The notes under the pieces were generated by a model that ran no database searches, was not told the origin of the DNA, and saw nothing but the letters and a program-made list of their open reading frames with translations. Shown here piece after piece: positions 601 through 58,847 of a stretch of DNA of 64,000 nucleotides; position 1 is the stretch's first letter; each line of letters begins with the position of its first letter. The position numbers were made by a program, and so were the translations under genes. The stretch lies in the NCBI GenBank assembly GCA_947380905.1, contig CANCSS010000005.1, positions 22,955 through 86,954 on the forward strand, in the 5' to 3' direction. Source of the DNA: Chitinophagaceae bacterium (GTDB lineage: Bacteria; Bacteroidota; Bacteroidia; Chitinophagales; Chitinophagaceae).

Positions 601-721
601 AAGACTGAATTTAGCCACCTAAAAATCTGTAAATCAACATAGTAATAGATTTTATAATACAAAATAGATCGTAAAATTTACCTCATTTTACCGCTTATTA
701 TATCTAAAATTTAAATAATAA

Positions 722-731
722 CAAACGTTTG
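722..731. promoter_or_regulatory. Palindromic LacI-family operator candidate
   Basis: CAAACGTTTG is a perfect 10-bp palindrome with the central CG typical of LacI/GalR-family operators (PurR-like). It lies 55 bp upstream of the LacI-family gene that starts at 787 and in the shared region with susC. Autoregulation and control of susC by that protein is the simple inference. Confidence 0.55.
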
Positions 732-786
732 CGATAAATTTTGTGGTAAAGTTTGCTTATTTTTAATTTGTAATTCAATTCATTTC

Positions 787-31377: not shown

Positions 31378-31392
31378 AATTTACTTCCTTTT

Positions 31393-34379: not shown

Positions 34380-34412
34380 TTCTTATTGCTTAGGTTTTGT
34401 ATTTCGATGCAA

Positions 34413-37769: not shown

Positions 37770-37838
37770 AGCGTATTAAATATAGTTAAAAAGCAGTTTT
37801 ATGCAATTGTTTTAGAACTAAAATGAAGCCTTATTTTA

Positions 37839-37851
37839 CGCAAACGATTTC
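37839..37851 (+). promoter_or_regulatory. LacI-type operator, pectin operon / lacI divergent region
   Basis: CGCAAACGATTTC fits the LacI-family pattern GnAAnCGnTTnC (GCAAACGATTTC). It lies 70 bp upstream of the GH28-GH105 fusion and 51 bp upstream of the preferred lacI start at 37902. It shares the core AACGAT with five other sites in the window. Confidence 0.65.
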
Positions 37852-37901
37852 GTATGTCTATGAAAAATATGTTAACTTCACATGACTCTAATTTTAAATA
37901 T

Positions 37902-38933
37902 ATGCGCTTTGAATCGATTACCATAAAAGACATTGCAAAGGCCTTAGGGCTTTCTACATCTACAGTAAGCCGTTCTCTTAGTGATAGTTATGAAATAAGT
38001 CTAGAAACCAAGCAAAAAGTTATTAATTATGCTAAAGAGAATAACTACCGACCCAACCCGATTGCCCTAAGTTTAAAGGATAAAAGAAGTCGTTCAATCG
38101 GCATTGTAGTGAGCGAAATTGCCAATAGCTTTCTTTCTCAATCTATTAATGGTATAGAATCCATAGCCAACGAAAAAGGATACAGTGTGATTATTGCCCA
38201 AAGTAAAGAAGATTTTGAAAGAGAAATTTCCTCTATGGAATTTTTAGCCTCCAAAAGTGTAGATGGTATATTAATTTCAGTTTCTAGCAGAACTTCTAAT
38301 TTTGATCACATCAAAAAATTATATGATAGAGGTATGCCCATAGTAAGTTTTGACTGTGTGGTAGATTTTGAAGGAATACATAAAGTAATTCAAGACAATT
38401 ATAAGGCCGCTTATGATGGAACAGTACATTTAATCAATAAAGGATTTAAAAAAATTGCTTGTATTGCTAGTTCCTCGTTTTTATCCATCACCACAGAAAG
38501 GGTAAAGGGATATATTGACGCCTTAAAAAAATACGAACCCCTCTTAAAAATAAGTGATATAGCATATATTGATCATGGTGGATTAAAAGCGGAAGAAATT
38601 TTTGACGCTATGGATAAACTTATGAATCAAAAAGAAAAACCTGATGCGATTTTAACTTGCTCAGATCGCATTACAACAAATGTAATGCGTTATTGTAAAC
38701 AAAATAAAATTGGTATCCCTAATCAATTAGGTTTAATCGGATTTAGCAATTTAGATTTAACAGACATCTTAACTCCATCTTTGTCTATCATTCGTCAACC
38801 AGCTTATGAAATGGGCAGAAAAGCAGCCGAATTACTTATAAAAATGATAGAGAGTAAAAGAGCAATAACTGAATTTGAAACGATGGTCATTCCCTGTCTA
38901 TTATTAGAAAGGGAATCTTGTACTAAGTACTAA
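37902..38933 (+). CDS. LacI/GalR-family regulator of the pectin/xylan locus (predicted)
   Basis: I prefer the ATG at 37902 (MRFESITIKDIAKALGLSTS, 343 aa). It places the helix-turn-helix at the usual N-terminal distance and leaves the operator-like site upstream. The track start at 37854 adds 16 unrelated residues. The protein has the HTH (IKDIAKALGLSTSTVSRSLS), a hinge and a sugar-binding-protein-like domain (RSIGIVVSEIANSFLSQSIN). It lies divergent from the uxa operon and convergent with the pectinesterase operon. It is the best candidate to bind the six AACGATTGC-type sites and to respond to a uronate intermediate; the effector is not known. Confidence 0.93.
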   Translation: MRFESITIKDIAKALGLSTSTVSRSLSDSYEISLETKQKVINYAKENNYRPNPIALSLKDKRSRSIGIVVSEIANSFLSQSINGIESIANEKGYSVIIAQSKEDFEREISSMEFLASKSVDGILISVSSRTSNFDHIKKLYDRGMPIVSFDCVVDFEGIHKVIQDNYKAAYDGTVHLINKGFKKIACIASSSFLSITTERVKGYIDALKKYEPLLKISDIAYIDHGGLKAEEIFDAMDKLMNQKEKPDAILTCSDRITTNVMRYCKQNKIGIPNQLGLIGFSNLDLTDILTPSLSIIRQPAYEMGRKAAELLIKMIESKRAITEFETMVIPCLLLERESCTKY

Positions 38934-38994
38934 AGTATAAAATAGTCCCTTACAATTAGGGCCTCACATCACCTGATAAAAATTTCAACCTTTT

Positions 38995-39987
38995 TTATAA
39001 TATTGGTTTCCAATAGCCAAATATTTTTTCAATGGTATATTCATTGACTTCTTTATCTGTTAGTTGATAAGACCAAGTAACTCTTTGCTGCCCTGCTGCT
39101 CCCAAACCCTTGGATTGATATTCGGCATAATAAGCGGTTTTTTCATTGGCTACATTATCCCAATTTTGCCAACCTACAGGCAAAATATGTTTTCCTAAAG
39201 CACATCTAACAAAAACAGTTTTAGCATAGGCTCTCCATGGCCTTCCTAAATATTCCATAGTACAATCATCACTTGAAATTAAATCGCAGTCTAAAAAAAC
39301 ATACCCATATAATTGATGAGGCATGGTTGATGCCGCGGTAACATAAGAATTTGATAAAGATTTAATAGTGCAATTTTTAAAAACGGCTGTGGCATTTCCA
39401 AAAATAAAATCAGTGGTGCCTTCTATATAACAATGATCATACAATTGCATACTTTCATCATTAGTGGCAAATAAAGTGTCTTGATTACCAATAAGATTGC
39501 AATTTTTTAAAATAAATCTACTTCCATTTACGTGCATTGCCACGGCCTGCCCCACTCTACCTGCCTCATTTTTTATAGTTAGATTTTCTATTGTAATATC
39601 ATTACCAAAAACAAACCAAGTAGCAGAAGTGAAAGTAGTATGTTTATTTTTATTAGTCATTGTATCGGTAGAAAAAAACTTACCTGCAAAATCATTATAA
39701 GAAATAATGGTTTGTTCTTTGCTTTCCCCTTTTATACTTAGGTTACTTACCCAGGCAGGAATGGTTACTTTTTCGTGGTACAAACCATTTTTGATAAATA
39801 TAGTTACATGTACAGGGGAATAAGCTCTTACTGCATCAATGGCTTCTTGAATTGTAAAATAATCTCCGGTGCCATCCTTAGCGACCACTAGATTCGGTTT
39901 ATAAGAAGCCCTTACATTGGCTTGTTGAGCCTGCGCAAATGGATGGAGACCAAAAAACAGAGCGGCTATAATTATTATCCTTTTCAT
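38995..39987 (-). CDS. Pectin methylesterase (CE8)
   Basis: The 330-aa protein has a signal peptide (FFGLHPFAQAQ) and the parallel beta-helix pectinesterase domain. Catalytic motifs are GNQDTLFA (Gln, Asp), EGTTDFIFGNATAVFKNC (second Asp) and LGRPWRAY (Arg). It removes methyl esters from homogalacturonan, giving access to polygalacturonase. It is the last gene of a four-gene minus-strand operon, 5 bp after the CE12-GH105 gene. Confidence 0.95.
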   Translation of the reverse strand: MKRIIIIAALFFGLHPFAQAQQANVRASYKPNLVVAKDGTGDYFTIQEAIDAVRAYSPVHVTIFIKNGLYHEKVTIPAWVSNLSIKGESKEQTIISYNDFAGKFFSTDTMTNKNKHTTFTSATWFVFGNDITIENLTIKNEAGRVGQAVAMHVNGSRFILKNCNLIGNQDTLFATNDESMQLYDHCYIEGTTDFIFGNATAVFKNCTIKSLSNSYVTAASTMPHQLYGYVFLDCDLISSDDCTMEYLGRPWRAYAKTVFVRCALGKHILPVGWQNWDNVANEKTAYYAEYQSKGLGAAGQQRVTWSYQLTDKEVNEYTIEKIFGYWKPIL

Positions 39988-39992
39988 ATTAA

Positions 39993-41837
39993 TTAATTTA
40001 GTTTATAAATTTCAGCACCTGCCATTAAATAACATCCTAATCCGTAATCTTCAAAATCGGGAAAATGATTATAATTGATGGGTTGCCCATCTTTTGGTTC
40101 TTTCCCAGTACTTTGCACATATCCCAAAGCACCATTTTTATGCATAGCAAAATTAGTCAACCCATTCCAAGCTTTTACAATGGCAGGCTTGTAAATATTC
40201 TTTGCTAAAATACCATGGTTGATACCCCAGGCAAAACCATAAGCGAACAAAGCAGTACCAGAACTTTCCTTCCCTTCAAAATGAATTGGATCTAGTAAAC
40301 TTACATTCCAAAAACCATCAAATCTTTGCAAAGGTAAAATAGCTTCAGCCATTGCTTTGAAATCTGCCAAATATTCTTGATAATGGGCATCGGTGGTAGG
40401 CAAATAATTTAAAGCTCGAGCCAAGGCTGCAAAAACCCATCCATTCCCTCTACTCCAATAACAATTTTTCCCATTCGGTTCTTTATAAGGAGGTGCAAAA
40501 TCTTTATCACGATACCATAAGTGATCAACATTATTATACAATCCACTTCCGCCATGTTGGTGTTTTGTAAAATCATACAAGTCATACATTTTTTTAAAAT
40601 ATAGGGTATCATGGTACATCACTCCCAACCTAGCAAAAACTGGCATGGCCATTTGCAAAGCATCCACCCAGGACCAATCATCTTTTTTATCTGATTGAAC
40701 CATTAGATCAATAGCTGTTTTAATAGCTATTATCCTTTGTTCTTGTTTGTCAATCTGGTATAAATCTAAATAAGTTTGTCCTGCGCAATGATTGTCTGCA
40801 TGCCTTGTATTAGCACCTCCCACCAATCCCCATTGATGCTTCTCGCCCCACTGAACAGCATAATCATAATATTTTTGTTGAGGTTTGATATTGTATAGTG
40901 ACATCAACCCTTCATAATATACTGCTCTGGTCCAAATATTGCTTTGGCGTTCTTTGTTTGTTATAATTGATTTGCCTGCATCTGGCCATTTGTCCATAAA
41001 ATATTTATTGGCAAGTTGCATCGACTTTAGGATCTTCTTTTGAGTCGGCCATTGCTGAGAAGGTACTGGAATTAAGTACTTTTTTATACCCCCTAAATTG
41101 AACTCTCTAAATTGTTCTTGAATAATTTTTGCGTTCAATGCTGCACCCGTATAATTGGTATGGGTGTGGTCAAGGGGGAAATAAGTAGTTACCCCCTTCA
41201 TTCCAATTAGTTCATAGGCACTTGATACAAGTTCATTTAAAGGAATAAATAAGGCATGCTCTTGTTTTGCAACTTCACTGGCCCATAAAGCATAAGAATC
41301 ATTGTGTCTAATTACTTTGCCCTGCTTCCAATCATTTCTTGGAATTAAAGAACATACAATAGGAATAGCACCTTTAGCTTGCGCCTCTTTGATATACTTA
41401 CGCATATAATATCCATAAGTATAAACAAGCTCTTGTTTTTTTGTAATTGGATTGTATATTTCTTTAGTACTGGAATCAATGCCATCAATGGTGCCTCTTG
41501 CTCTTGCGGTATCGTCAAGTGGTCCAGCATCATTATGCCCAAATTGCATGAGCACATAATCCCCTTTTTTTAAAGTGGAAAGTACTTTATCCCATCTTCC
41601 TTCTGTAATAAAAGTTCTACTACTTCTTCCTCCAATGGCTAAGTTTTGTACTTCTATTTTGGTGGTATCAAAGTAAATACCCAATAAACTGCCCCAGCCC
41701 CACAGATTATTTTTACCAGTGCCATCTCCATTTTTTACGGTAGAATCACCAATGATGTATACAACAGGTTTTTCTGTTTCAAGAAAAACAAAAGCAGAGC
41801 ATATCGTTATCAGAAGTAATAAAGCAATTTTTTTCAT
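39993..41837 (-). CDS. Secreted CE12-GH105 fusion (rhamnogalacturonan acetylesterase plus unsaturated rhamnogalacturonyl hydrolase)
   Basis: The 614-aa protein has a signal peptide and an N-terminal SGNH esterase domain. That domain (about 25-245) carries IIGDSTVKNG (Ser), AIGGRSSRTF (Gly), QFGHNDAGP (Asn) and DHTHTN (Asp, His), typical of CE12. A linker leads to a GH105 barrel (about 265-614; IWTRAVYYEGLMSLYN, WSWVDALQMAMPVFARLG, YWSRGNGWVFAALARAL, ESSGTALFAYGFAWG). Together they would deacetylate rhamnogalacturonan I and remove 4,5-unsaturated galacturonosyl ends. It is operonic with the pectinesterase and the GH106 gene (38-bp gap). Confidence 0.93.
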   Translation of the reverse strand: MKKIALLLLITICSAFVFLETEKPVVYIIGDSTVKNGDGTGKNNLWGWGSLLGIYFDTTKIEVQNLAIGGRSSRTFITEGRWDKVLSTLKKGDYVLMQFGHNDAGPLDDTARARGTIDGIDSSTKEIYNPITKKQELVYTYGYYMRKYIKEAQAKGAIPIVCSLIPRNDWKQGKVIRHNDSYALWASEVAKQEHALFIPLNELVSSAYELIGMKGVTTYFPLDHTHTNYTGAALNAKIIQEQFREFNLGGIKKYLIPVPSQQWPTQKKILKSMQLANKYFMDKWPDAGKSIITNKERQSNIWTRAVYYEGLMSLYNIKPQQKYYDYAVQWGEKHQWGLVGGANTRHADNHCAGQTYLDLYQIDKQEQRIIAIKTAIDLMVQSDKKDDWSWVDALQMAMPVFARLGVMYHDTLYFKKMYDLYDFTKHQHGGSGLYNNVDHLWYRDKDFAPPYKEPNGKNCYWSRGNGWVFAALARALNYLPTTDAHYQEYLADFKAMAEAILPLQRFDGFWNVSLLDPIHFEGKESSGTALFAYGFAWGINHGILAKNIYKPAIVKAWNGLTNFAMHKNGALGYVQSTGKEPKDGQPINYNHFPDFEDYGLGCYLMAGAEIYKLN

Positions 41838-41875
41838 TGTATAATAAGATTATTAGTTGCTAATTTTAAAAATAA

Positions 41876-44635
41876 TCAACGAATTGAATATAGTGCCACT
41901 TCCCCCTCTAATCCAGCTGCTTGAACTTTCCAAGAAGAGGCGTCAAAGGGTTTATAATTAATATTAACGAAATTAATATCTGTAAACTTTCTCCATTCCA
42001 TTTTGTGTTGATCCATGTATCTTATTCGATTGGCCATTAGATTGGCTACTTCGATTGTAATTGTATTTTTTCCTTGTTTTAAAAAACGGCCAATAGATAG
42101 TTCAAAAGGGAATGACCAGCTAATGCCTGCCTCTTTCCCATTTACAAAAACCTTAGCAGACTCGTTTACTTTACCAAGTTTTAAAATAAAATCTTGACTA
42201 TTTTTTTTATCAACGACTACACTTGTTTCATATATACCTATACCCGAAAAAGAATACAAGAGCGTATCATTGTTCAAGTCTGTCCAATTTTTTAAATTAG
42301 GTAAAATTTGCTTTTGAGGCAAAACCGGGCCACCCTCTTTAAAACTTAAATTCCAGCTGCTATTCATATTTATTTTTTGTGCAAGATCTCCATAAATCCA
42401 TTTGGGAACAGATTGTTTATGGGTCAGCTTGGCTTGAACAATCAAGGAAGCCCCCGAAGCCAATTTTACTCTAAAGGAACTGCCTTGAGATGTACTTGCC
42501 GATTTCACTTTACCCCATTGACCATTCATTGGGTTTAATAAAACAATTTGCTGAGACGAGGTATGTAAAACAATTTGCGTGTCAATTAATTGATCAGTGG
42601 CATTCACAATGAAATAATTTTTATTGCCCGCTACCTTTCTTTTGATGTACTTTAAACCTAATTGTGTAATATTTTCTTCTTTATGGATGCCTAGGTACTC
42701 CATGGCATTTTGAACTTGCGAAGCCAACAAACATTTTCCTTTGCCATACTTGGCCACCATAAGTCCTTGCTTTACTTCTGTAAATGGTAACAATTCAAGT
42801 TGTTTTTTTAATGCAATTCTTCTTTGATCCAAATTAAATAAACCAGGCACATCTGTTGGTAGTGCTTCAAAAATTACCGTTGCCCCTTTGTATACATTTT
42901 GCAAAATAGAAGCCAAAGTTTCCAATGGGATAAATTCGCTTTTGGAGACCAATAATACAGGATAGGAGGCCCCTTTAGTAGCAATGCTCCATTGCCCATT
43001 TTTGTTGTTCGCATTTTGCAACATTTTGTCTGAAACAAAATCAAATGCATATCCTTGCTTTTTTAACAGTTGCATATTTTTATAAAAACTAGAAGGGTGT
43101 AACCACTCATCTACATCATGTACTTTTAGTTGCTTTTCAAGCCCAACCGGTTTGCTCCATATATCATAAATAGGCCAATAAGCCAACACTTCATTATCAG
43201 GTTTGCCTTCTTGTAAAATGGATTGTGTTCTGGCAATATAATTATTCAGCCCTTTGAGATGAGACCATAAACTATTGGCTGGTATAAATTCTACAGACGC
43301 GTAAAACAACCATCCTGGCCAAACAGCTTCTTGGGGAGAATAGGTAGTGCCATGATATACAACATGATTAACGCCTGATAAAAAAGCTTGATCTATTTCA
43401 GGCTTACATTGCGACCAGGAGGTTTTAAAATGTTCTGTTAACCAAGTAAAGGATTCGCAAGAAACAAGTGGCTTTCCCATCACATGACTTGCAGAAGAGG
43501 CAAATTGCAACATCATAGGATCCGGATCCACATTTCTGATATCAGCAGAATCTCTTCTTAGACCTGGATAAGGAAAGTAGCTAGAACCAAAGGTTTCAAT
43601 TTCGGGTATATCAACTGCCGCATACAAATCCAATAAATTACCTGGGGAACCATGCGCTTCGTTCAAGGATAAAGTTTTTTTACGCTGTGCAAATTGATGG
43701 TATGGATTGGCAAAATTTTGAAGTATCAAATCAGAGAGCGTTTCTCTATAATCAGACTTTACTCTTCTAACAATCTCTGTATTTTCAGAAGAATTTAAAT
43801 AATTTAAAAAGGGCTTAAAATCATATCCTCTTTTAGTTGCGAAATCATTCAAAAAAGTGGGTGTCCAATTGGCATTTTCCACTTCATAACTATCATTGTA
43901 AAATGCTTTTATTCCATGTGCGTCATTTTTAAAAAGGGTATCCCATTGTTGAAGATAAGCAGGCAAAGCATTGAGTGAGAAATGATCAAGCGTATAACCT
44001 TCTGCCCCTGGCGCTGCCCTTTTTACTTTTTGTAAAGTTTTTGAAACAAAAGCAGCCATTAACTTCCAGCTTCCTTTAGGCGCAGTCCAGGTTAATTGGC
44101 CGTCTGCATTCACAAAAGAAGTAATGTCTTTAACTTCTGTGTTATCACCGTATGCCATTATAAATGACAATTTCGCAATGGATTTATCTTTGCTACGAGG
44201 CTGAATTTTTTCTGTAAGCGATTGACCCTCCTTGACAAAAAACGATTCCATGGTTAATTTAGTCGCAGCGTTCTCTAAACTTACTTGAGGTCCTCCGATA
44301 GGCCAACCACTCCCCATAGCAAGGTATACTCCCATATCCAATTGAATGGATTGTTTAACCGTATAATCCAACATTTGCATCCAAGATTTGGATAAATAAG
44401 GAATGAATTTTTTTTCATAGCCCTTGGCACCATAGATAGGAACTATTTCCACGCCACCAAAACCCACTTTCTGTAAATCACACAACTGATTTTTAATGTT
44501 GATGGAATCCACTGCATCGCCCATCCACCACCACCTTGTCCATGGTTTGGCATCTTGAGAAATCATAGGCCATTGCGCATTTACACATTGAGAAAAATAT
44601 AAAAATACAATGATAAAAAAATATTTTTTTCTCAT
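41876..44635 (-). CDS. GH106 alpha-L-rhamnosidase
   Basis: The 919-aa secreted protein (signal peptide MRKKYFFIIVFLYFSQCVNA) starts with the GH106 hallmark (KPWTRWWWMGDAVDSINI, VGFGGVEIVPIYGAKGYEKK). It continues with MGVYLAMGSGWPIGGPQVSL and the catalytic-region segments LNEAHGSPGNLLDLYAAVDI and EIETFGSSYF. The C terminus (KLGKVNESAKVFVNGKEAGI) is a galactose-binding-like beta-sandwich. It removes L-rhamnose from rhamnogalacturonan. It lies second in the operon, 13 bp after the GH105 gene. No rhamnose catabolic genes are in the window. Confidence 0.93.
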   Translation of the reverse strand: MRKKYFFIIVFLYFSQCVNAQWPMISQDAKPWTRWWWMGDAVDSINIKNQLCDLQKVGFGGVEIVPIYGAKGYEKKFIPYLSKSWMQMLDYTVKQSIQLDMGVYLAMGSGWPIGGPQVSLENAATKLTMESFFVKEGQSLTEKIQPRSKDKSIAKLSFIMAYGDNTEVKDITSFVNADGQLTWTAPKGSWKLMAAFVSKTLQKVKRAAPGAEGYTLDHFSLNALPAYLQQWDTLFKNDAHGIKAFYNDSYEVENANWTPTFLNDFATKRGYDFKPFLNYLNSSENTEIVRRVKSDYRETLSDLILQNFANPYHQFAQRKKTLSLNEAHGSPGNLLDLYAAVDIPEIETFGSSYFPYPGLRRDSADIRNVDPDPMMLQFASSASHVMGKPLVSCESFTWLTEHFKTSWSQCKPEIDQAFLSGVNHVVYHGTTYSPQEAVWPGWLFYASVEFIPANSLWSHLKGLNNYIARTQSILQEGKPDNEVLAYWPIYDIWSKPVGLEKQLKVHDVDEWLHPSSFYKNMQLLKKQGYAFDFVSDKMLQNANNKNGQWSIATKGASYPVLLVSKSEFIPLETLASILQNVYKGATVIFEALPTDVPGLFNLDQRRIALKKQLELLPFTEVKQGLMVAKYGKGKCLLASQVQNAMEYLGIHKEENITQLGLKYIKRKVAGNKNYFIVNATDQLIDTQIVLHTSSQQIVLLNPMNGQWGKVKSASTSQGSSFRVKLASGASLIVQAKLTHKQSVPKWIYGDLAQKINMNSSWNLSFKEGGPVLPQKQILPNLKNWTDLNNDTLLYSFSGIGIYETSVVVDKKNSQDFILKLGKVNESAKVFVNGKEAGISWSFPFELSIGRFLKQGKNTITIEVANLMANRIRYMDQHKMEWRKFTDINFVNINYKPFDASSWKVQAAGLEGEVALYSIR

Positions 44636-44648
44636 GGCTTTAATCTGA

Positions 44649-45992
44649 CTAATTATTTAAAGCGTGTATCGCACTATCATTTACTTCAAACTTATGGCTA
44701 TTGATTAAGTTAATCATTTCCGCCCCTGCTAATAATACTGGCCCATATCCATGCGCTGCATAAACACTGGTAGGTCGATAATAATAAAAAGCAGGATCAA
44801 AAGCCAAGCCTGTTCCAACACAAGTTCCCTCCACTTGACCTTCCTTATTTATTTTACTAGCTACTGCATTCCAAGCCAAGATAACCATAGGACCATAGGC
44901 TTTTGCCTCTATCCAATGATTGTTGATGGCTCTAGCAATGGCATAACAATAAATCGCTGTGGCAGAAGTTTCTAAATAGCTGTCATTTTTGTCTAATAAT
45001 TGATGCCAAAAACCCGAGGCAGTTTGTTGAACAGATAATCCTTTTATATGCAGCAGCAATTGTTGTAAAATTGTTTCTCTTCCTGGATAATTTTTTGGCA
45101 ACACATCTAATAATTCAACCATGGTTAAGATGGCCCAGCCATTGGCCCTGGCCCAATAAAACTCGGGGTGTACTTTCATAGATGCCACCCAACCGTGCAT
45201 GTATAAATTTTTATCTTTGTTAAACATTTTTTCCGAAAATTGTAAAACTTGTTTAACTGCATCATCATAGTAACTATTATTGCCTGTAAGCTTTCCAGCT
45301 TGAGCCAATGCAGGCACACTCATAAATAAATCATCCAACCAAAGTGTATTAGCTTGAGGTCTTGATCTGGCCAATGTACCGTCCTCAAGTCTTTGTTGTT
45401 TTTTACTTATATATTTTAAAAAATTATCCGCCAAGGGTTGTAAATTTTTGTCTTGGTTGAATTGAATTGTTTTTAAAATGGAAGCGCAAATGGAACCCGC
45501 ATCATCTAATGCCTTGGGATCAATAACAGAACGCAAAGGGTTGTTTTTTTGATAGTTTTTGTCATAAAGCATTTTAAAGCCTTGATAACTTGCTCCAATA
45601 AGTCCAAGCCTATCGGAAGTATAATTCGAAAACTTATTATCATTCGTTGCTTTGCCTACCGCCAACATGCCTGCATAAGTAACTCCCCATTCATAACTTG
45701 TTAACCTAAAATCTCCGGGTTTAAATATGGTATTGCTGTCCAAACTATTTACATCCACCATTGCTCCTGTTTGTTTATGAATTAACTGGGCAGGGGTTGC
45801 AGTGTTTAAATAATTGTAGATAATAGTTAATTTCTCTTTTACATTTTCCACGGTGGGTATTTCATAGGCCACTGGATAATTTGGCTTTAGGGCATGTAAA
45901 GGAGTATTGGCATCGGTTGATTTTTGCGCTTGGATGCTAAAAGGGGTGCAAAAAATTAGCACCCATAAAAAATTGAAACTACTCTTTTTCAT
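44649..45992 (-). CDS. GH105 unsaturated rhamnogalacturonyl hydrolase
   Basis: ATG at 45992 (MKKSSFNFLWVLIFCTPFSIQAQ) gives 447 aa with a clear signal peptide; the track start 27 codons upstream has no such leader. The catalytic (alpha/alpha)6 barrel has TLWLDDLFMSVPALAQAGKL, WARANGWAILTMVELLDVLP and DSYLETSATAIYCYAIARAI. It removes 4,5-unsaturated galacturonate from rhamnogalacturonan oligosaccharides made by lyases. It is the first gene of the four-gene operon. A LacI-type site lies 22 bp upstream of the start. Confidence 0.92.
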   Translation of the reverse strand: MKKSSFNFLWVLIFCTPFSIQAQKSTDANTPLHALKPNYPVAYEIPTVENVKEKLTIIYNYLNTATPAQLIHKQTGAMVDVNSLDSNTIFKPGDFRLTSYEWGVTYAGMLAVGKATNDNKFSNYTSDRLGLIGASYQGFKMLYDKNYQKNNPLRSVIDPKALDDAGSICASILKTIQFNQDKNLQPLADNFLKYISKKQQRLEDGTLARSRPQANTLWLDDLFMSVPALAQAGKLTGNNSYYDDAVKQVLQFSEKMFNKDKNLYMHGWVASMKVHPEFYWARANGWAILTMVELLDVLPKNYPGRETILQQLLLHIKGLSVQQTASGFWHQLLDKNDSYLETSATAIYCYAIARAINNHWIEAKAYGPMVILAWNAVASKINKEGQVEGTCVGTGLAFDPAFYYYRPTSVYAAHGYGPVLLAGAEMINLINSHKFEVNDSAIHALNN

Positions 45993-46013
45993 TATAAAAA
46001 TATTTATAAAAAT

Positions 46014-46026
46014 GCAATCGTTAGTG
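46014..46026 (-). promoter_or_regulatory. LacI-type operator upstream of the GH105-GH106 operon
   Basis: The minus strand reads CACTAACGATTGC, sharing AACGATTGCAT with the site upstream of susC. It lies 22 bp before the GH105 start codon, where a repressor would block transcription. Confidence 0.6.
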
Positions 46027-46160
46027 GACCTCCTATAAAAATAACGAAACTTTTTAGATATTAAATATGGCAATTTTAATTAGGAACAATAATTGTAAAA
46101 TATTTGAAATTATTGTTCCTACAATCAAAAAATCAATTAGAAAAAGCTTTAAATTGAGCC

Positions 46161-46173
46161 TGATATCGATTGC
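46161..46173 (+). promoter_or_regulatory. LacI-type operator upstream of the GMC dehydrogenase
   Basis: TGATATCGATTGC matches the shared core at all but one position (ATCGATTGC instead of AACGATTGC) and contains the palindrome ATCGAT. It lies 28 bp before the GMC gene start. This is the weakest of the six sites. Confidence 0.4.
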
Positions 46174-46200
46174 GTAAATTGTTTAAAACTAATAAAAATT

Positions 46201-47925
46201 ATGACCCCCTATAATAGCAGCTTAAATGCATCCCATACCTATGACGCCATTGTAATTGGTTCTGGCATTACTGGAGGCTGGGCTGCCAAAGAGCTGTGTG
46301 AAAGAGGCTTAAAAACCTTGGTACTAGAAAAAGGCCGAATGGTGAAACATATCGAAGATTATACAACAGCCAACAAAGATGCCTGGGATGAACCCTTTAG
46401 AGGACAAATTTCTCACGAAGCAATACAAGAACAAAATGTGCAAGCAAGAAGCGGCTATATCAATGCCTTTTCAAAGCAATTTTTTGCCAATGATTTGGAC
46501 AATCCCTACCAAGAAGTGCAGAGATTTGATTGGTTCAGAGGCAATCAAGTGGGTGGCCGATCTATTACCTGGGGAAGACATACTTACAGATGGTCTGATT
46601 TAGATTTTGAAGCCAATGCCAAAGAAGGAATAGCTATTGACTGGCCCATTCGATATAAAGACATCGCTCCTTGGTATAGTTATGTAGAAAAGTTCATTGG
46701 CGTTGCAGGAGAAAAAAGAAATTTACCTCATTTGCCTGATGGCGATTTCTTGAAGCCATTTGATATGAACTGTATCGAAAAACATTTTGCAGAAAGTGTT
46801 GAAAATGGTTTTAAGTCAAGACCTGTTATCATGGGTCGAGTAGCTCATTTAACGGAAACCAAACCATGGCATACTGCCCTTGGAAGAGGTACTTGTCAAA
46901 ACAGAAATAGATGTGGAAGAGGTTGCCCATTTGGCGCCTATTTTAGTAGCAATGCAGCTACTTTGCCTGCTGCCAATAACACAGGGCTTCTTACCATCAG
47001 GCCTTTTTCAATTGTGCATTCTATTATTTTAGACAAGCATAGCAACAAAGCCACTGGTGTTAGAATACTAGACGCAGAAACAAAAACAATGACCGAGGTT
47101 TTTGCCAAAATTGTTTTTGTATGTGCATCCACGCTAGCCACCACACAAATTTTATTACATTCTTCTTCAGATAGATTTCCCCAAGGCTTAGGCAATGCAT
47201 CTGGTGTACTTGGACATAACCTAATGGATCATCATCACAATGTAGGTGCTATGGCTAGTTATGATGGATTAAAAGATGCTTATTACAAAGGACGAAAGCC
47301 TGTAAGTCTTTTTATTCCCAAATATGTAAATCTGAATGAGCAAACAAAACAAGCTCAATTCAAAAGAGGTTTTAACTATCAAGCAGGAGATGCCATTAGA
47401 GCTAGTTGGAATAGAGGCGTCAACGAACTAGGTGTAGGGGCTCATTTCAAAGACAATCTCCTGGTCCCTGGCGAGTGGAGTATGAGTATGATGGCTTTTG
47501 GTGAAGTGTTGCCTTACCACGAAAATAAAGTAACACTGCATCCAACGCTCACTGACAAATGGGGCATTCCTCAATTGGTCATAGATGCTGGCTTTAAAGA
47601 AAACGAGTGGAATATGCGTAAAAAAATGAAAGACGACGCTGCCGAGATGTTTGAAAAAGCAGGATTTAAAAATATAAAAGCTTTCGACAATCCCACCGCC
47701 CTTGGCAATTCTATTCATGAAATGGGCACCGCTCGAATGGGTAAAGATCCCAAAACATCTGTTTTAAATGAACACAACCAAATACATGGCATACCCAATG
47801 TTTTTGTAACAGATGGCGCTTGTATGGTTTCTTCCAATTCTGTAAATCCAAGTTTAACTTATATGGCGCTTACCGTTAGAGCTGTTGATTTTGCAGTGAA
47901 TGAATTAAAAAAGAATAATTTATAA
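46201..47925 (+). CDS. GMC-family FAD sugar dehydrogenase with C-x5-C-x3-C motif
   Basis: The 574-aa flavoprotein has an N-terminal FAD-binding fold (AIVIGSGITGGWAAKELCER) and a GMC region (GGRSITWGRHTYRWSDLDFE). The C-terminal active-site region carries IHEMGTARMG (His) and SSNSVNPSLT (Asn). Cysteines 232, 238 and 242 (TCQNRNRCGRGCP) form the C-x5-C-x3-C spacing that holds a [3Fe-4S] cluster in bacterial FAD glucose dehydrogenase and glucoside 3-dehydrogenase. No signal peptide is present, so export may depend on the small subunit encoded 3 bp downstream. The likely role is oxidation of a sugar or glycoside; substrate and electron acceptor are unknown. No cytochrome subunit is nearby. Confidence 0.88.
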   Translation: MTPYNSSLNASHTYDAIVIGSGITGGWAAKELCERGLKTLVLEKGRMVKHIEDYTTANKDAWDEPFRGQISHEAIQEQNVQARSGYINAFSKQFFANDLDNPYQEVQRFDWFRGNQVGGRSITWGRHTYRWSDLDFEANAKEGIAIDWPIRYKDIAPWYSYVEKFIGVAGEKRNLPHLPDGDFLKPFDMNCIEKHFAESVENGFKSRPVIMGRVAHLTETKPWHTALGRGTCQNRNRCGRGCPFGAYFSSNAATLPAANNTGLLTIRPFSIVHSIILDKHSNKATGVRILDAETKTMTEVFAKIVFVCASTLATTQILLHSSSDRFPQGLGNASGVLGHNLMDHHHNVGAMASYDGLKDAYYKGRKPVSLFIPKYVNLNEQTKQAQFKRGFNYQAGDAIRASWNRGVNELGVGAHFKDNLLVPGEWSMSMMAFGEVLPYHENKVTLHPTLTDKWGIPQLVIDAGFKENEWNMRKKMKDDAAEMFEKAGFKNIKAFDNPTALGNSIHEMGTARMGKDPKTSVLNEHNQIHGIPNVFVTDGACMVSSNSVNPSLTYMALTVRAVDFAVNELKKNNL

Positions 47926-47928
47926 ACC

Positions 47929-48525
47929 ATGAACAGAAGAGCCTACATACAACAAACTACAAAATACTTGGGCTATACCCTAGTCGCTGGTTCGGTTTTA
48001 AATTTATGGACTTCCTGCGAGCATAGTTCTTCAAATTGGAAGCCTGTTTTTTTTACGCCATCAGAAGCCAACACCTTATCGGCCATCACGGATACCATTT
48101 GTCCTAAAACAGCCACTCCTGGTGCCAATGAAGTTGGAGTACCTCAATTTATAGATCTATTAATTCAAACCTTATTAAAAAAAGAAGACCAATTGTTTTT
48201 TAAAAAAGGAATTGAAGAAATAGACCTAGTAGCTAAAAAACAATTTAATAAAGCATTTAGTGACCTTGATATAAATCAAAAAGAAAGTATTTTACTTACA
48301 TTAGACAAAGCCTCTGCACCCACAGCAATGACCATGTGGGGCAAACCTATGGAAGCCCACCCTGCTTCCTTAAGCTTTTATAGAAAAATAAAAAACTTAA
48401 CGCTGATGGCTTATTTTACGAGCGAGAAAATTGGAAAGTATATTTTAGCTTACGACCCACTGCCAGGAAGTTTTAAAGCTTGTATCCCATATCACAATGA
48501 AAAAAACTGGACAGAAGTAAGTTAA
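47929..48525 (+). CDS. Gluconate 2-dehydrogenase subunit 3 family protein
   Basis: The 198-aa protein begins with a twin-arginine-like and lipobox-like leader (MNRRAYIQQTTKYLGYTLVA ... LWTSCEH). It contains the family signature FFTPSEANTLSAITDTICPK. Proteins of this family are the small chaperone-like or export subunit of GMC dehydrogenases. The gene starts 3 bp after the GMC stop, so the two are surely co-expressed. A strong bidirectional terminator follows. Confidence 0.9.
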   Translation: MNRRAYIQQTTKYLGYTLVAGSVLNLWTSCEHSSSNWKPVFFTPSEANTLSAITDTICPKTATPGANEVGVPQFIDLLIQTLLKKEDQLFFKKGIEEIDLVAKKQFNKAFSDLDINQKESILLTLDKASAPTAMTMWGKPMEAHPASLSFYRKIKNLTLMAYFTSEKIGKYILAYDPLPGSFKACIPYHNEKNWTEVS

Positions 48526-48540
48526 GCACTTTGGTACAAA

Positions 48541-48572
48541 AAAAATACGCAACATAAATGTTGCGTATTTTT
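48541..48572. terminator. Bidirectional rho-independent terminator
   Basis: A perfect 15-bp inverted repeat AAAAATACGCAACAT / ATGTTGCGTATTTTT with a 2-base spacer lies between the convergent dehydrogenase-subunit and susD genes. A-runs and T-runs flank it on both sides, so it can end transcripts in both directions. Confidence 0.9.
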
Positions 48573-48597
48573 TTATCTGAAAGTTTCTAGAAATAAT

Positions 48598-50577
48598 CTA
48601 GTAGCCTGGATTTTGCATCGCTTGCTTTTGGGCAGAAGATAAATTTATACCACTAGCTTGAATACCATCTAAGAATGATTGAGGTATTGGACGTAAAACA
48701 TGAAAATCTTTAATGTTAGCAGCACCTTCTAAGTTAAAAGCTTTTACTCTAGATACCAATGTTTTGGTTCTTGATAAATCTTCCCAACGTAGGAATTCAC
48801 CAGCCAATTCTCGAGAGCGCTCGTTAAGCACCAGTGCTAACATTCTATCATAAGCACTTGATAAACCTAAAGTGGTAATAATATATTCATCTTGAGCAGG
48901 CAAAGCCGTCGGACTTGCAATGGCTAAGCTTGCTGCTGCTGCAGTTGTTGTTGCAATATTATTAGATTCATAATAAGAATTCTTTGGGTAAAAAGAGTTG
49001 CCAACACCTGGCGATTGTAAACCAGCTGATAACAAGGTATTACCACCATCCCAATAATTATCTCTTTCTTCACCACTTACATATTGAGCACGTTTTCTTA
49101 CTGCATTAATGTAGGGTAAGGCATCTGCATATAAACCCAATCTAATTTTTGCTTCTGCAGCAATTAAATAAGTTTCTGCAGATCTTGCTAAAGTAAAGTC
49201 TCTATGTCCTACTACATCATTCAATGAGTTCCTTGAACCATCTAAATGTTTACTTAGTGATGGGAAACCTTGACCTGCAGTAGATACATCTGTGTAAAGA
49301 GCTCCGTCGGTAGTTCTACCATTTGGATAAGCTACATAAGTGGTAGGAATATCCCTTCCTGTATTACGGGTATCTACGACTCTTGTTCCAAGCGCCTTGG
49401 TAATTTTAGTCAAGGGGAATCTTGTATCCCCAGGTTGGTTAATTACAAACATGATACCTAGGTCACCTTTCACATTCGGGCTAACAGGCGAGGCGCCATT
49501 GATAGCACTTTTAGTTTTCCAAGATTTCCAAAAACGAGAATCATTTACCATGTCATAAATACGATAATCATAGTAGGTTGTAGCCAATCTACTGAATGGT
49601 CTGTCTCCAGTTAAGTCACGAGCACATTGATCTTGTACATCATATCTTGAAACAAAATACAAATGTTGTGTATTACCATTTCCTTGTAATGTGTTTACGT
49701 CGTTTGTAAATTGTGCCGAAAGAATTAACTCAGGTAAATTTTCGTTGGCAGAGTTTTGAGCAGTGAATTTCCACAAATCTCCAAAATTACTAGCCAACGG
49801 GTGTCTAGCTATAACTTGATCACAAAGAGGTCCAATGGCAGCTAAATCAGCAGCTTTGGTGTCTGTATTCCATGAACTATTAATTTCACTTGCTCTGCTT
49901 AATAAAACTTTCGCTAAATAGTGGTTGGCAGCATCTTGTGTAATATGTGATGGTCCGCCAGCTATTGGTAACAATGGTGTAGCAGCCTTTAAATCTGATA
50001 CTATTTGTGCGAATACATCTTTAGCGGAAGCACGAGTAAATTCAGTTTTAACAGTATTGATAGGAGTCAATTGTAATGGCACGCCACCATACTGGCTTAC
50101 TAATCTAAAGTAATTGTAGGCACGCAAAAAATAACCCTCCCCTAATGCTGTATTTTTAATTGCTGTAGAAGTGGAAGTACTCTTAGTTGCATTTGCAATT
50201 AACAAGTTGGCATCACCAATACCAGTGTATAAAGCATCCCATTGATAATTGGATAAAGCAGTATTACCATTTGGGGCAATTACTGTTGGACCAAAGGTCG
50301 CATCATAGTTATTCCAAGGTGAGTTAGAAGGGTCACCACCAATATGAAACTCATCCGTTCCATACTGGGTAGCAGCATAATTCCACTCTCCATTGAAAGG
50401 AACGTCAAAGACCTGATACTGTGCCCCAACAGACAATTGTTGAATACCAGCATCTGTTAAGAAGAAGTCGGTGGTTCTTGCTGTTGTAAGTGTTTCATTT
50501 AAAAAATCCTTATTGCATGACGAAGTAAAAAATACTACCGCAACAATGATAAGTTTATTCAAAAAATTATTTTTCAT
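48598..50577 (-). CDS. SusD/RagB-family outer-membrane lipoprotein
   Basis: The 659-aa protein has a lipoprotein signal with Cys in FFTSSCNKDFLNE and the SusD helical core with TPR-like repeats (YFLRAYNYFRLVSQYGGVPL). It ends in the family C terminus (LNERSRELAGEFLRWEDLSR ... VLRPIPQSFLDGI). It captures glycans at the cell surface and closes over its SusC partner. It lies 20 bp downstream of susC. At 659 aa it is longer than many SusD proteins, mainly through a Ser/Ala-rich segment before the C-terminal region. Confidence 0.95.
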   Translation of the reverse strand: MKNNFLNKLIIVAVVFFTSSCNKDFLNETLTTARTTDFFLTDAGIQQLSVGAQYQVFDVPFNGEWNYAATQYGTDEFHIGGDPSNSPWNNYDATFGPTVIAPNGNTALSNYQWDALYTGIGDANLLIANATKSTSTSTAIKNTALGEGYFLRAYNYFRLVSQYGGVPLQLTPINTVKTEFTRASAKDVFAQIVSDLKAATPLLPIAGGPSHITQDAANHYLAKVLLSRASEINSSWNTDTKAADLAAIGPLCDQVIARHPLASNFGDLWKFTAQNSANENLPELILSAQFTNDVNTLQGNGNTQHLYFVSRYDVQDQCARDLTGDRPFSRLATTYYDYRIYDMVNDSRFWKSWKTKSAINGASPVSPNVKGDLGIMFVINQPGDTRFPLTKITKALGTRVVDTRNTGRDIPTTYVAYPNGRTTDGALYTDVSTAGQGFPSLSKHLDGSRNSLNDVVGHRDFTLARSAETYLIAAEAKIRLGLYADALPYINAVRKRAQYVSGEERDNYWDGGNTLLSAGLQSPGVGNSFYPKNSYYESNNIATTTAAAASLAIASPTALPAQDEYIITTLGLSSAYDRMLALVLNERSRELAGEFLRWEDLSRTKTLVSRVKAFNLEGAANIKDFHVLRPIPQSFLDGIQASGINLSSAQKQAMQNPGY

Positions 50578-50597
50578 ATAATATTAATTATTATTTA

Positions 50598-53500
50598 TTA
50601 AAATGTTGCATTAATTCCAAGTGTAAATCCTCTGTTCCAAGTGGGTCCTTGTACGTCCATATCAAGAAAGTTGATTTTTGAAAATAACGTACCAGGATTT
50701 GAAACTTGTAAATAGGCTTTTAAACTTGAAATGCCTGTTGATTTACTCATGGTTTTTGAATCAAAACTATAACCAAGAGAAATGTTTCTTACTTTAATAA
50801 AAGATCCATCCTGATAGCCTAAAGCTGTGTAATAGGCATCCCCTGTTGCACCACCAGCATTAAATATTGGTTTTTGATAGTACGCATTTGGATTAAGTGG
50901 TGTATAGTAATCAATAGCTCTTTGCATTGTTCTTGCAGCTTGAGCTTCACCACCAGTATTGTACATATAGTTTAACCTACTGTAAACAAAAATTGAAAAA
51001 TCCCAATTTTTGTAAGAAACGGAATTGGTCATACCCAATACCCAACGTGGTCTTGTCCATCCAATAATGGTACGATCGTTGTTGGGATCAATTTTATAAT
51101 CACCATTCAAATCTGCTACTCTTACACTACCTACAGTAAAAGAGTTGGATGTATACTTATTCATTTCAGCTACATCAGCTTCTTTCCATAAACCAATTGC
51201 CTTGTAACCATAAATAACACCAATCCCTTGTCCTATAAACCAGTTGTTGTTGATATCATCTTGAGTACCATTTGACAAAGAAACAATATTTTCTTTTTGC
51301 CATCCTGCATTAAATGTCGTTGACCATTGTAAGTCTTTTTGTTTAATGTTAACAGTAGTGATACTTATGTCAACCCCTTTGTTTGCTGTTTTTCCAATAT
51401 TAGCAAAAGTGGTAGTAAATCCAGTTACAGTAGGAATTGACCTTTGCATTAATAAATCGTTTGTTTCTGAAGTATATGCATCAATTGATCCAGTAACTCT
51501 TCTTTTAAATAAACCAAAGTCCACACCTACGTTATATTGTGTTGTTCTTTCCCAACCTAAGTTCAAGTTGGCTAATACTGCATTTGGAATTGAACCCGCA
51601 GCATTTGAGCCACCATATGGATAGAACAAGGAGCTTATTGAACCTTGAGTGGAGTAAGGATTGATAGCAGAGTTACCTGTAACACCAGCTCCAACTCTTA
51701 ATTTCAAGTCATCCACCCAATTCACTTTAAAGAATTTTTCTCTGTTGATTCTCCAAGCGATTGCCGCAGATGGGAAGGTAGAAAATTTATGGCCATCTGC
51801 CAATTGAGAGGCACCATCTTGACGAGCAGAAGCAGTTAATATATATCTGTCTTTATAGCTATAGTTAAATCTAGCCATATAAGACATTAATTGTTGCTCA
51901 ACTAAATCAGATGCAGTACTTAATTGACCAGTTACTGTACCACTCGTTAAAGCATTCCAAAGTTGTGATTGAACTGGAACACCATTCCCAATTGTATTAC
52001 TTGTTTCTCTGTTATAAGCAGTTTGGCTCATCAATAAGGTTACCCCTAATGTATGATCACCAATAGTTTTATCATAATAAACTAAGTTGTCCAATGTGTA
52101 GGAGAAGTTGGTATTCTTATAGAGTGCCGCATAGTTAGTGCTACCTCCGTTTTGAACTGAATTAGCATCTACATATACCCCATCACGATAGAAAGAAATA
52201 TCTGGTCCAAAGTTCATTCGGTACTTTAAACCTTGTAATAAAGGAATTAAATTGCCAACATTAATTTGAGTATACAAGCTACCAAAAGCACGTAAAGTAA
52301 CTCTTTGATCCCTGCTATACTTCCACTCATCCACAACACTCTTAATTGCGTTATCTCCACCAGGGAATAAAACCCTGTTGCCAGCTGAATCATAAGGTAA
52401 TGCATAAGGATAAACACCTCTTGCAGACTCATATAATCCACTAGCAGGAGAACCAATAGTTGCAACTCCAGCACCATTTTGGCCATACTCTTGAACACTA
52501 TAAGTAAGACTAAGGTTATTTCCAAAAGTCAACCATTTAGTGGCAGAGATATCTAAGCTTGCTTTGGCAGAATATCTTTTATAAGATTGGCCTTTAATGG
52601 TACCTGAATTATCAAGAAAACCAAAAGAGGCATATCCCTTTATTTTGTCTGTACCACCACTCACGCTTAAAACGTGGTCAGTAGTGATATTTTGTTGTGT
52701 CACAAAACTTGTCCAATCAGTATTACCCACTTTAGAACCATCCCAGCTTCCAGAAGCCCAACCTTTTGCTATATTGCTCCAAGCAGTAGGATCTGCTGTA
52801 GCAGCAAAAAGTGTTCTATCGTTGGCAAGTGTAGGCTGATCTCCCCTTGGATTCGTGCTTACACCTGTTGTTTTGTTTAAACCAGTGTAATAATAAGCCC
52901 ATCTTTTATAAGTTATGTAATCCGATGAATTAAACATTTGCATATTGTCTACTAAGTTGTCAAGTTTCACTGATGAACTTAAGCTTAATGTTACTTTACC
53001 AGATTTACCTTGTTTCGTGGTGATGATGATTACTCCATTTGCACCACGTGAACCATAAATCGCTGTAGCAGACGCATCCTTCAATACATCAATTGATTCA
53101 ATGTCATTAGGATTTAAATAATCAATACCGCCCGTAATTAATGGTATACCATCAACAACATAAAGTGGCGAGTTAGAGGCAGTTAAAGAACGTACCCCAC
53201 GAATATTGATAGACCCTACTTGTCCAGGACGCTCATTGGTTGAGATATCAACTCCGGCAACCTTCCCCTGCATCGCTTCTACTGCGTTTTGCACTGGGCG
53301 AGATTTAATGTCGTTTTGGTTGATACCAGCAACGGATCCTGTTACATCTTTTCTTTTTACAGTATTGTACCCAACCACTACTACTTCATCCAAGGCTTTG
53401 GATTCTGGGTTAAGTGATACATTTAAAGAAGCGCTAGCTTCGTTAAAAACTAGAGACTTGTCTTCATAACCAGTAAAAGAAAAACGCAGTTCTCCTTTTC

Positions 53501-53723
53501 CGGAAACTGTCAATTTAAATTTACCTGTTGCATCAGTTAGCGTTTTTTCTTTGCTGCTCGCTGAAACTACAACACCCTCAAGACCTACTCCATTTTCATT
53601 GGTAACAGTTCCTTGTATGGAATGAGAACTGCCCTTTTGTGCAAACGCGTTTTGCTGTGTGAATCCAAGCATGATTACACTTAAAAAAAACAAACGCATA
53701 AAAAGCAAACACTTTTTTTTCAT
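50598..53723 (-). CDS. SusC/RagA-family TonB-dependent outer-membrane transporter
   Basis: The 1041-aa protein has a signal peptide (to about NAFAQKG), an N-terminal carboxypeptidase-regulatory-like domain, a TonB-box-like LDEVVVVGYNTVKRKD, the plug (VDGIPLITGG, ATAIYGSRGANGVIIITTK) and a long beta-barrel. It ends in NRGFTLGINATF with a terminal Phe. It imports oligosaccharides with SusD using TonB energy. The divergent GH115/GH43/GH10 genes point to glucuronoxylan fragments as cargo. LacI-type sites lie about 45 and 180 bp upstream of the start. Confidence 0.96.
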   Translation of the reverse strand: MKKKCLLFMRLFFLSVIMLGFTQQNAFAQKGSSHSIQGTVTNENGVGLEGVVVSASSKEKTLTDATGKFKLTVSGKGELRFSFTGYEDKSLVFNEASASLNVSLNPESKALDEVVVVGYNTVKRKDVTGSVAGINQNDIKSRPVQNAVEAMQGKVAGVDISTNERPGQVGSINIRGVRSLTASNSPLYVVDGIPLITGGIDYLNPNDIESIDVLKDASATAIYGSRGANGVIIITTKQGKSGKVTLSLSSSVKLDNLVDNMQMFNSSDYITYKRWAYYYTGLNKTTGVSTNPRGDQPTLANDRTLFAATADPTAWSNIAKGWASGSWDGSKVGNTDWTSFVTQQNITTDHVLSVSGGTDKIKGYASFGFLDNSGTIKGQSYKRYSAKASLDISATKWLTFGNNLSLTYSVQEYGQNGAGVATIGSPASGLYESARGVYPYALPYDSAGNRVLFPGGDNAIKSVVDEWKYSRDQRVTLRAFGSLYTQINVGNLIPLLQGLKYRMNFGPDISFYRDGVYVDANSVQNGGSTNYAALYKNTNFSYTLDNLVYYDKTIGDHTLGVTLLMSQTAYNRETSNTIGNGVPVQSQLWNALTSGTVTGQLSTASDLVEQQLMSYMARFNYSYKDRYILTASARQDGASQLADGHKFSTFPSAAIAWRINREKFFKVNWVDDLKLRVGAGVTGNSAINPYSTQGSISSLFYPYGGSNAAGSIPNAVLANLNLGWERTTQYNVGVDFGLFKRRVTGSIDAYTSETNDLLMQRSIPTVTGFTTTFANIGKTANKGVDISITTVNIKQKDLQWSTTFNAGWQKENIVSLSNGTQDDINNNWFIGQGIGVIYGYKAIGLWKEADVAEMNKYTSNSFTVGSVRVADLNGDYKIDPNNDRTIIGWTRPRWVLGMTNSVSYKNWDFSIFVYSRLNYMYNTGGEAQAARTMQRAIDYYTPLNPNAYYQKPIFNAGGATGDAYYTALGYQDGSFIKVRNISLGYSFDSKTMSKSTGISSLKAYLQVSNPGTLFSKINFLDMDVQGPTWNRGFTLGINATF

Positions 53724-53755
53724 TTGGTAATGGTTTTTAAAATATCAATAATAAA

Positions 53756-53768
53756 GCTTTCGTTAGTA
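53756..53768 (-). promoter_or_regulatory. LacI-type operator near susC start
   Basis: The minus strand reads TACTAACGAAAGC, matching the shared core AACGAnnGC. It lies about 33-45 bp upstream of the susC ATG. Confidence 0.5.
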
Positions 53769-53784
53769 TTAAAGACTGCAATTG

Positions 53785-53816
53785 GGCTAAATAGTAAAAA
53801 TTCTTAGGCTACATAG
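53785..53816. repeat. Direct repeats GGCTAnATAG in the susC upstream region
   Basis: GGCTAAATAG (53785-53794) and GGCTACATAG (53807-53816) differ at one base and are 22 bp apart, about two helical turns. The second also lies between two CTTAGGC copies (53803 and 53817). The arrangement suits a second, direct-repeat-binding regulator, such as an AraC-type or hybrid two-component protein, but none is encoded next to it. Confidence 0.4.
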
Positions 53817-53893
53817 CTTAGGCAAATCGTCTAATAACGGATGAATATACAATGTAACCCACTTATTTTTTAGGAAAGTATTAACATTTTTTA

Positions 53894-53906
53894 CGGAAAC
53901 GATTGC
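53894..53906 (+). promoter_or_regulatory. LacI-type operator in the xylan divergent region
   Basis: CGGAAACGATTGC, followed by AT, shares AACGATTGCAT with the operator at 46014. It lies about 170 bp upstream of susC and 200 bp upstream of the GH115 gene. Confidence 0.6.
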
Positions 53907-54068
53907 ATGAAAAATAATAAAAGCCTTATTTTCTTACTTCTACCGATTAAAAGCAATTACTTGATTTGAGCTTGCTAATTGGTTGCAGGTTGGTACAATC
54001 CCCAAACATGCACTTTATTACTATTGCTCGCTTCTACTATCAAATGAATTGTGCTAAATAATTGAATT

Positions 54069-54081
54069 TGCAAACGATAGC
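54069..54081 (+). promoter_or_regulatory. LacI-type operator upstream of the GH115 gene
   Basis: TGCAAACGATAGC lies 28-40 bp before the GH115 start. It sits between a TTTG (54067) and a TAATTTTA near-match to the -7 box (54085), the position expected for repression. Confidence 0.6.
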
Positions 54082-54108
54082 ATGTAATTTTAGTAAAATG
54101 ATTTTAAA

Positions 54109-56661: not shown

Positions 56662-56666
56662 AAAAA

Positions 56667-57728: not shown

Positions 57729-57735
57729 TATAGTC

Positions 57736-58830: not shown

Positions 58831-58847
58831 AACTTAAAAACACAAAA

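Follow-up and report, generated by a model that had tools for sequence, protein, structure and literature searches.

A probable uronate-responsive LacI regulon joining pectin import, pectin hydrolysis and both uronate branches in a Chitinophagaceae bacterium

Introduction

Uronate use in Bacteroides is regulated by UxaR, UxuR and KdgR, which belong to one branch of the LacI family (PMC3878776, PMC4052901), and even palindromes with a central CG are the norm for operators of this family (PMC4052901). The monosaccharide regulators of Bacteroides have a limited number of extracellular targets, yet ManR and AraR control SusC/SusD operons (PMC3878776). For xylan, the systems known so far are described as being under LacI-family or hybrid two-component control (PMC12125979).

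A preliminary description of the locus reported here proposed that six shared LacI-type operators place pectin, xylan and GMC dehydrogenase genes under one LacI protein, and considered such joint control unusual, as polysaccharide loci of this phylum often use hybrid two-component or ECF/anti-sigma regulators. The presence of a LacI regulator is nothing exceptional in itself, as the Bacteroides LacI uronate regulators UxaR, UxuR and KdgR have already been described (PMC3878776, PMC4052901). The protein shares family, phylum and pathways (galacturonate, glucuronate and 2-keto-3-deoxygluconate, KDG) with Bacteroides UxaR (BT0824), UxuR (BT1434) and KdgR (BT0487); the tree constructed here comprised relatives of this genome. 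These Bacteroides proteins are mainly monosaccharide regulators acting beside polysaccharide sensors, whereas the targets predicted here include SusC, the main pectin enzymes and probably the glucuronoxylan enzymes. ManR and AraR are likewise one-component regulators joining cytoplasmic catabolism to a SusC/SusD operon (PMC3878776), but are of the GntR and NrtR families and respond to mannose and arabinose instead of uronates. The xylan system of Xanthomonas campestris, likened by description only, shares LacI-family control of xylan use together with TonB-dependent transporters but is Proteobacterial. The kind of regulator is thus already known; what would set this one apart is that a single protein covers the import and hydrolysis of pectin, the two uronate branches and probably the glucuronoxylan enzymes, a combined target set that appears unusual.

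Gene content of the locus

The stretch of 64,000 nucleotides that was analysed computationally (the window, G000:C5:22955-86954) is from a genome of 1.97 Mb in 55 contigs, 82% complete, whose nearest named relatives were Chitinophagaceae or uncultured Bacteroidetes MAGs. Pfam and NCBIfam assignments, and synteny with L221, L222, G015 and G034, identified a minus-strand operon (29965..37769) of GH28-GH105, uxaB (tagaturonate reductase), uxaA and uxaC. Beyond the plus-strand lacI gene (37902..38933) lies a second minus-strand operon (38995..46073; Pfam and sequence) for a CE8 pectinesterase, CE12-GH105, a GH106 rhamnosidase and the GH105 that heads it, the start of which is likely the ATG at 45992. 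It is followed by the genes of a GMC dehydrogenase and a gluconate_2-dh3 subunit (46201..48525, plus strand; Pfam), syntenic in L221 and L222, and by a pectin-type outer-membrane import pair, SusD and SusC (48598..53723, minus strand, with SusC at 50598-53723; Pfam and NCBIfam), for which orthologues of 82-86% identity were found. A plus-strand glucuronoxylan operon (54109..60782; Pfam) encodes a GH115 alpha-glucuronidase, GH43, a GH10 xylanase and a SASA-type esterase.

The SusCD orthologues adjoin GH105/CE12 genes in G432 and a GMC gene in G433. In G432 one flank of the pair holds GH106, CE12, uxuA and an alpha-glucuronidase gene of family GH67, and the other flank holds GH105/CE12; pectin and alpha-glucuronidase genes therefore adjoin there too, the alpha-glucuronidase being of another family.

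Identity of the LacI protein

The lacI product (343 aa) was read from 37902, the conserved start of its orthologues, the 37854 start of the ORF table being an upstream in-frame ATG. The protein has the traits of its family: a sugar-binding, periplasmic-binding-like domain (PF00532, 112 bits) alongside the HTH (PF00356, 50.4 bits), both above cut-off, and an even CG-centred palindrome 5′ of its own gene. Only two LacI HTH proteins were found in the 82% complete assembly, this one (the pectin LacI) and LacI2, at window 787. The earlier statement that the 37902 protein is the only local regulator was right for the 37839-54081 stretch.

Orthologues of lacI were syntenic with uxaBAC in L221, L222, G015 and G034, and in the tree of relatives the pectin LacI and the UxuR-like proteins formed distinct, supported clades. 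In Mucilaginibacter polytrichastri (L226) an orthologue of 50% identity comes after a uxuB-kdgK-kdgA-exuT cluster, with two sites 5′ of the cluster and one directly after lacI, which ties the LacI protein to uronate metabolism beyond its own bacterial family. As expected of a uronate regulator, operators were found 5′ of uronate catabolic genes (the uxaBAC and uxuB-uxuA-kdgK operons). The most likely role of the 37902 protein is regulation of uronate use, as for UxaR, KdgR and UxuR of Bacteroides, a prediction based on the genome's other perfect operator match, which precedes uxuB-uxuA-kdgK-yhcH-kdgA-exuT.

Definition of the operator

All six strings of the preliminary description were found at their positions. 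Their shared core CNAACGATTGC, searched with up to two mismatches, had 59 matches in the window against 50 expected, about as in shuffled sequence, and was discarded as uninformative; this is the frequency that would be seen if the sites were short AT-rich look-alikes chosen by eye. A scoring matrix was made solely from relatives, using the sites upstream of their pectin-LacI and UxuR-like genes, and chance expectation was computed for about 600 bp, comprising three promoter regions. The operator so defined was an 18-bp palindrome, TACGnAAwCGwTnnCGTA, with CG at its centre. The highest-scoring positions in the window were 37837 (25.1), 53892 (17.9), 197 (17.7), 46159 (15.6) and 46011 (10.7). 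Position 197 falls within a SusC gene, and the sites first noted at 37839, 53894 and 46161 thus ranked first, second and fourth. This independent matrix, together with cross-species conservation, refutes a chance origin for 37839 and 53894, and for the set as a whole such an origin is scarcely credible.

In lacI orthologues of 55-67% identity from seven same-genus genomes the upstream block was TTTACGCAAACGATACCGGTAT, TTTACGCAAACGTTCCCGGTAT or a close variant; in L225 it was TTTACGCAAACGATACCGGTAT. The sister loci L221 (78%) and L222 (73%) carried TTTTTACGCAAACGATTTCG, with a core identical to that of the window.

The six sites were not equal, and three good sites, one moderate and one weak were retained. 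The strongest, TACGCAAACGATTTCGTA (37837..37854, first noted at 37839; score 25.1, chance about 1e-7), lies between lacI and GH28-GH105/uxaBAC and was conserved 5′ of lacI in all 10 same-group relatives examined. The second (53892..53909, noted at 53894; score 17.9, chance 1-3e-4) lies between SusC and GH115, 169 bp 5′ of SusC. The SusC orthologues of G432, G433 and G434 (82-84% identity) had counterparts about 167-270 bp upstream, scoring 17.9 (L274:8738), 20.2 (L279:4407) and 9.9 (L266:10512), respectively.

Conservation upstream of orthologues, seen for these two sites, was partial for the next two. The candidate operator 25 bp 5′ of the GMC gene (46159..46176, noted at 46161) scored 15.6 (chance 5e-4 to 1.5e-3); when its footprint was sought in L221 and L222, the former kept a half-site scoring 13.0 and the latter had no counterpart. 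The candidate 5′ of the GH105-led operon (46011..46028, noted at 46014) was moderate (score 10.7, chance 0.01-0.02) and also had no counterpart in L222. On sequence comparison, neither site is well conserved in the sister genomes. A weak candidate (54067..54084, noted at 54069; score 7.4, chance 0.05-0.10) lies 25 bp 5′ of GH115. Footprinting was not suited to this promoter, as a close GH115 orthologue was found in only one of 28 same-genus genomes, G010, where the stretch directly upstream is coding. The minus-strand string TACTAACGAAAGC (53756..53768) was ruled out as a member of the palindrome class (score -2.9, with 3-5 such expected by chance). Three direct effects are tentatively proposed: of 54067 or 53892 on GH115/GH10, of 46011 on the GH105-led operon and of 46159 on the GMC dehydrogenase.

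A second target outside the window

Genome-wide statements derive from searches with sequence patterns and from those stretches whose surroundings were read; counts for reversed control patterns were left unused, as backward reading turns CG into GC. With at most one mismatch, the 12-mer of the preliminary description, GCAAACGATTGC, had 13 matches in the 1.97-Mb genome, nine of them within genes. The four intergenic matches were 37839, 53894, 54069 and a site upstream of uxuBA-kdgK. The longer pattern ACGNAAWCGWTNNCGT had exactly two perfect matches, both intergenic, at window 37838 and at C6:15327; the two operators have 17 bp in common, ACGCAAACGATTTCGTA. With one mismatch it was found at window 53893 and in six more places, of which five were read and proved to be coding, the sixth being C20:10752. 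Whether the motif is as common elsewhere in the genome thus depends on its definition: the loose core is, the refined operator is not.

The C6:15327 site lies about 400 bp 5′ of uxuB, at the head of an operon encoding a D-mannonate-oxidoreductase-type SDR (uxuB), uxuA, a KDG-kinase-like sugar kinase (kdgK), yhcH/DUF386, a KDPG/KHG aldolase (kdgA) and an MFS transporter (exuT). This is the glucuronate branch together with the common lower pathway. Since the site played no part in defining the motif, it independently confirms that the motif marks uronate genes. Its distance from uxuB is greater than usual and counts against the model proposed below. Within the interval, L129:11442-11741 holds a GH3-like C-terminal fibronectin-III remnant (a weak PF14310 match with stops read through), indicating that the long uxuB leader contains a decayed gene end. 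At the other end of the operon, after the MFS transporter, a 3-keto-disaccharide hydrolase and a GFO/IDH/MocA oxidoreductase were noted (L139:3656-6446, also on C6).

The same operon is present in G016, G006 and G004, with uxuB 87-88%, uxuA 84-85% and kdgK 95-97% identical to those of this genome. There a divergently oriented LacI gene of the UxuR-like type stands at its head, with an operator of the same class, and uxaC lies between uxuA and kdgK; in this genome uxaC is absent from the operon. G432 and G434 also retain a UxuR-like gene beside uxuA, whereas no UxuR-like paralogue was found in this 82% complete genome; UxuR could be encoded in the portion that is absent. In sequence identity to G016, G004 and G006 the operon exceeds the housekeeping HisRS (77-78%). 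This contrast fits acquisition from another lineage, which may have occurred, but does not prove it, and it is weakened as a sign of acquisition because the uxuA and kdgK genes of G016 and G006 are equally distant from one another.

These findings bear on a narrower interpretation, in which LacI controls only lacI, GH28/uxaBAC and SusCD, and the GH115, GMC and uxuBA sites are look-alikes serving other LacI proteins or none. The weak GH115 site, the lack of conservation of the GMC and GH105 sites and the service of uxuA by UxuR-like paralogues in relatives would all be accounted for, but the 17 bp common to the uxuB and lacI operators, the failure to find UxuR in this genome and the clustering of the Mucilaginibacter orthologue with uxu/kdg genes would not, and we regard so confined a regulon as unlikely.

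The sites might instead serve mainly a different regulator that uses palindromes of this type, either LacI2 or a UxuR-like protein encoded in the unassembled part. UxuR-like and LacI2 paralogues do use similar operators in relatives, and a site alone therefore cannot name its regulator; the LacI2 genes of relatives also have class palindromes upstream, and in all three LacI types the first position of the recognition helix is followed by an identical residue, with few residues differing. However, the 37839 and uxuB sites matched the pectin-LacI footprint best, and lacI adjoins its operator together with uxaBAC in many genomes, making assignment to another regulator very improbable.

Proposed regulon

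Control by the pectin LacI is thus preferred, and a single LacI regulon, as first proposed, was supported by the operator common to lacI and GH28-uxaBAC, the conserved operator at SusC and the link to the glucuronate side. In the proposed model, for which we have good though not complete confidence, a uronate-responsive, autoregulated LacI, probably a repressor, governs its own gene along with GH28-GH105/uxaBAC, the SusCD pair for pectin and, at an unlinked place, the uxu operon. When uronate is absent, LacI bound to TACGnAAwCGwTnnCGTA would, we infer, hold down lacI and GH28-GH105/uxaBAC, SusCD and uxuB-uxuA-kdgK-yhcH-kdgA-exuT. It would be released by a shared intermediate, most likely KDG, which is favoured as the effector since the uxaA and uxuA routes first converge at this compound. 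Galacturonate and glucuronate, the latter via GH115, both drain into KDG, and this would explain pectin and glucuronoxylan genes in one regulon. The joint control of pectin, xylan and GMC genes proposed at the outset is therefore recast as a link through uronate catabolism, its best second target being uxuB-uxuA-kdgK outside the window; GH115/GH10 and GMC are tentative direct targets.

Control of the uxu operon would have passed to the pectin LacI from a UxuR-like paralogue such as relatives retain close to uxuA. Of hybrid two-component regulators, the Y_Y_Y periplasmic sensor (PF07495) had no match here or in G432, G433, G434 or G016; it was present in G010 and G034. That neither a UxuR-like paralogue nor a Y_Y_Y sensor was found suggests that a single LacI took over both branches. 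It is conceivable, though we stop short of calling it probable, that in this streamlined Bacteroidota lineage, where hybrid two-component sensors were not detected, one KDG-sensing LacI has taken the place of the glucuronate regulator as well as of the customary sensors of polysaccharides. It would then be the master switch for the import of pectin, for the hydrolysis of pectin and glucuronoxylan and for the two uronate pathways; the uxu operon might be foreign, with an operator since adapted to the regulator already present.

If the proposed regulon is correct, two plant-polysaccharide systems, often sensed separately elsewhere, answer to a single intracellular signal at the meeting point of their degradation pathways, a merging of regulons that can be tested. 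It would also show how polysaccharide loci are operated in the small genomes of this group when hybrid two-component sensors are lacking, and would provide a precise operator for regulon prediction in uncultured Bacteroidota.

Related sites in this genome and its relatives

Sites of the class preceded SusC genes in G024, G025 and G034, a divergent SusC/MFS pair in G035 and G033, and, in G010 (L116), a gene reading as uxaA, judged from the N-terminus only. Fructose-1,6-bisphosphatase was preceded by a class site in G433, G034 and G434 (L285:1389, L286:2570 and L287:1388), which would fit gluconeogenic growth on uronates; the protein had no match in this genome, and its co-regulation here was dropped from consideration. 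A strong class palindrome was also present about 120 bp upstream of the glutamate synthase large subunit (by N-terminus) in two relatives (L270:6177 and L122:1501).

LacI2 had a conserved palindrome of its own upstream, CAAACGTTTGCG (window 712-732). In three relatives (L267:9464-9530, L275:9046 and L280:391) the LacI2 start is directly preceded by a further palindrome, which belongs to the pectin-LacI class and is missing in this genome. The sequence ACGCAAACGTTTGAGA was found at L133:10018 (G000:C12:36019), about 205 bp 5′ of another SusC/SusD pair, and could belong to LacI2 rather than to the pectin LacI.
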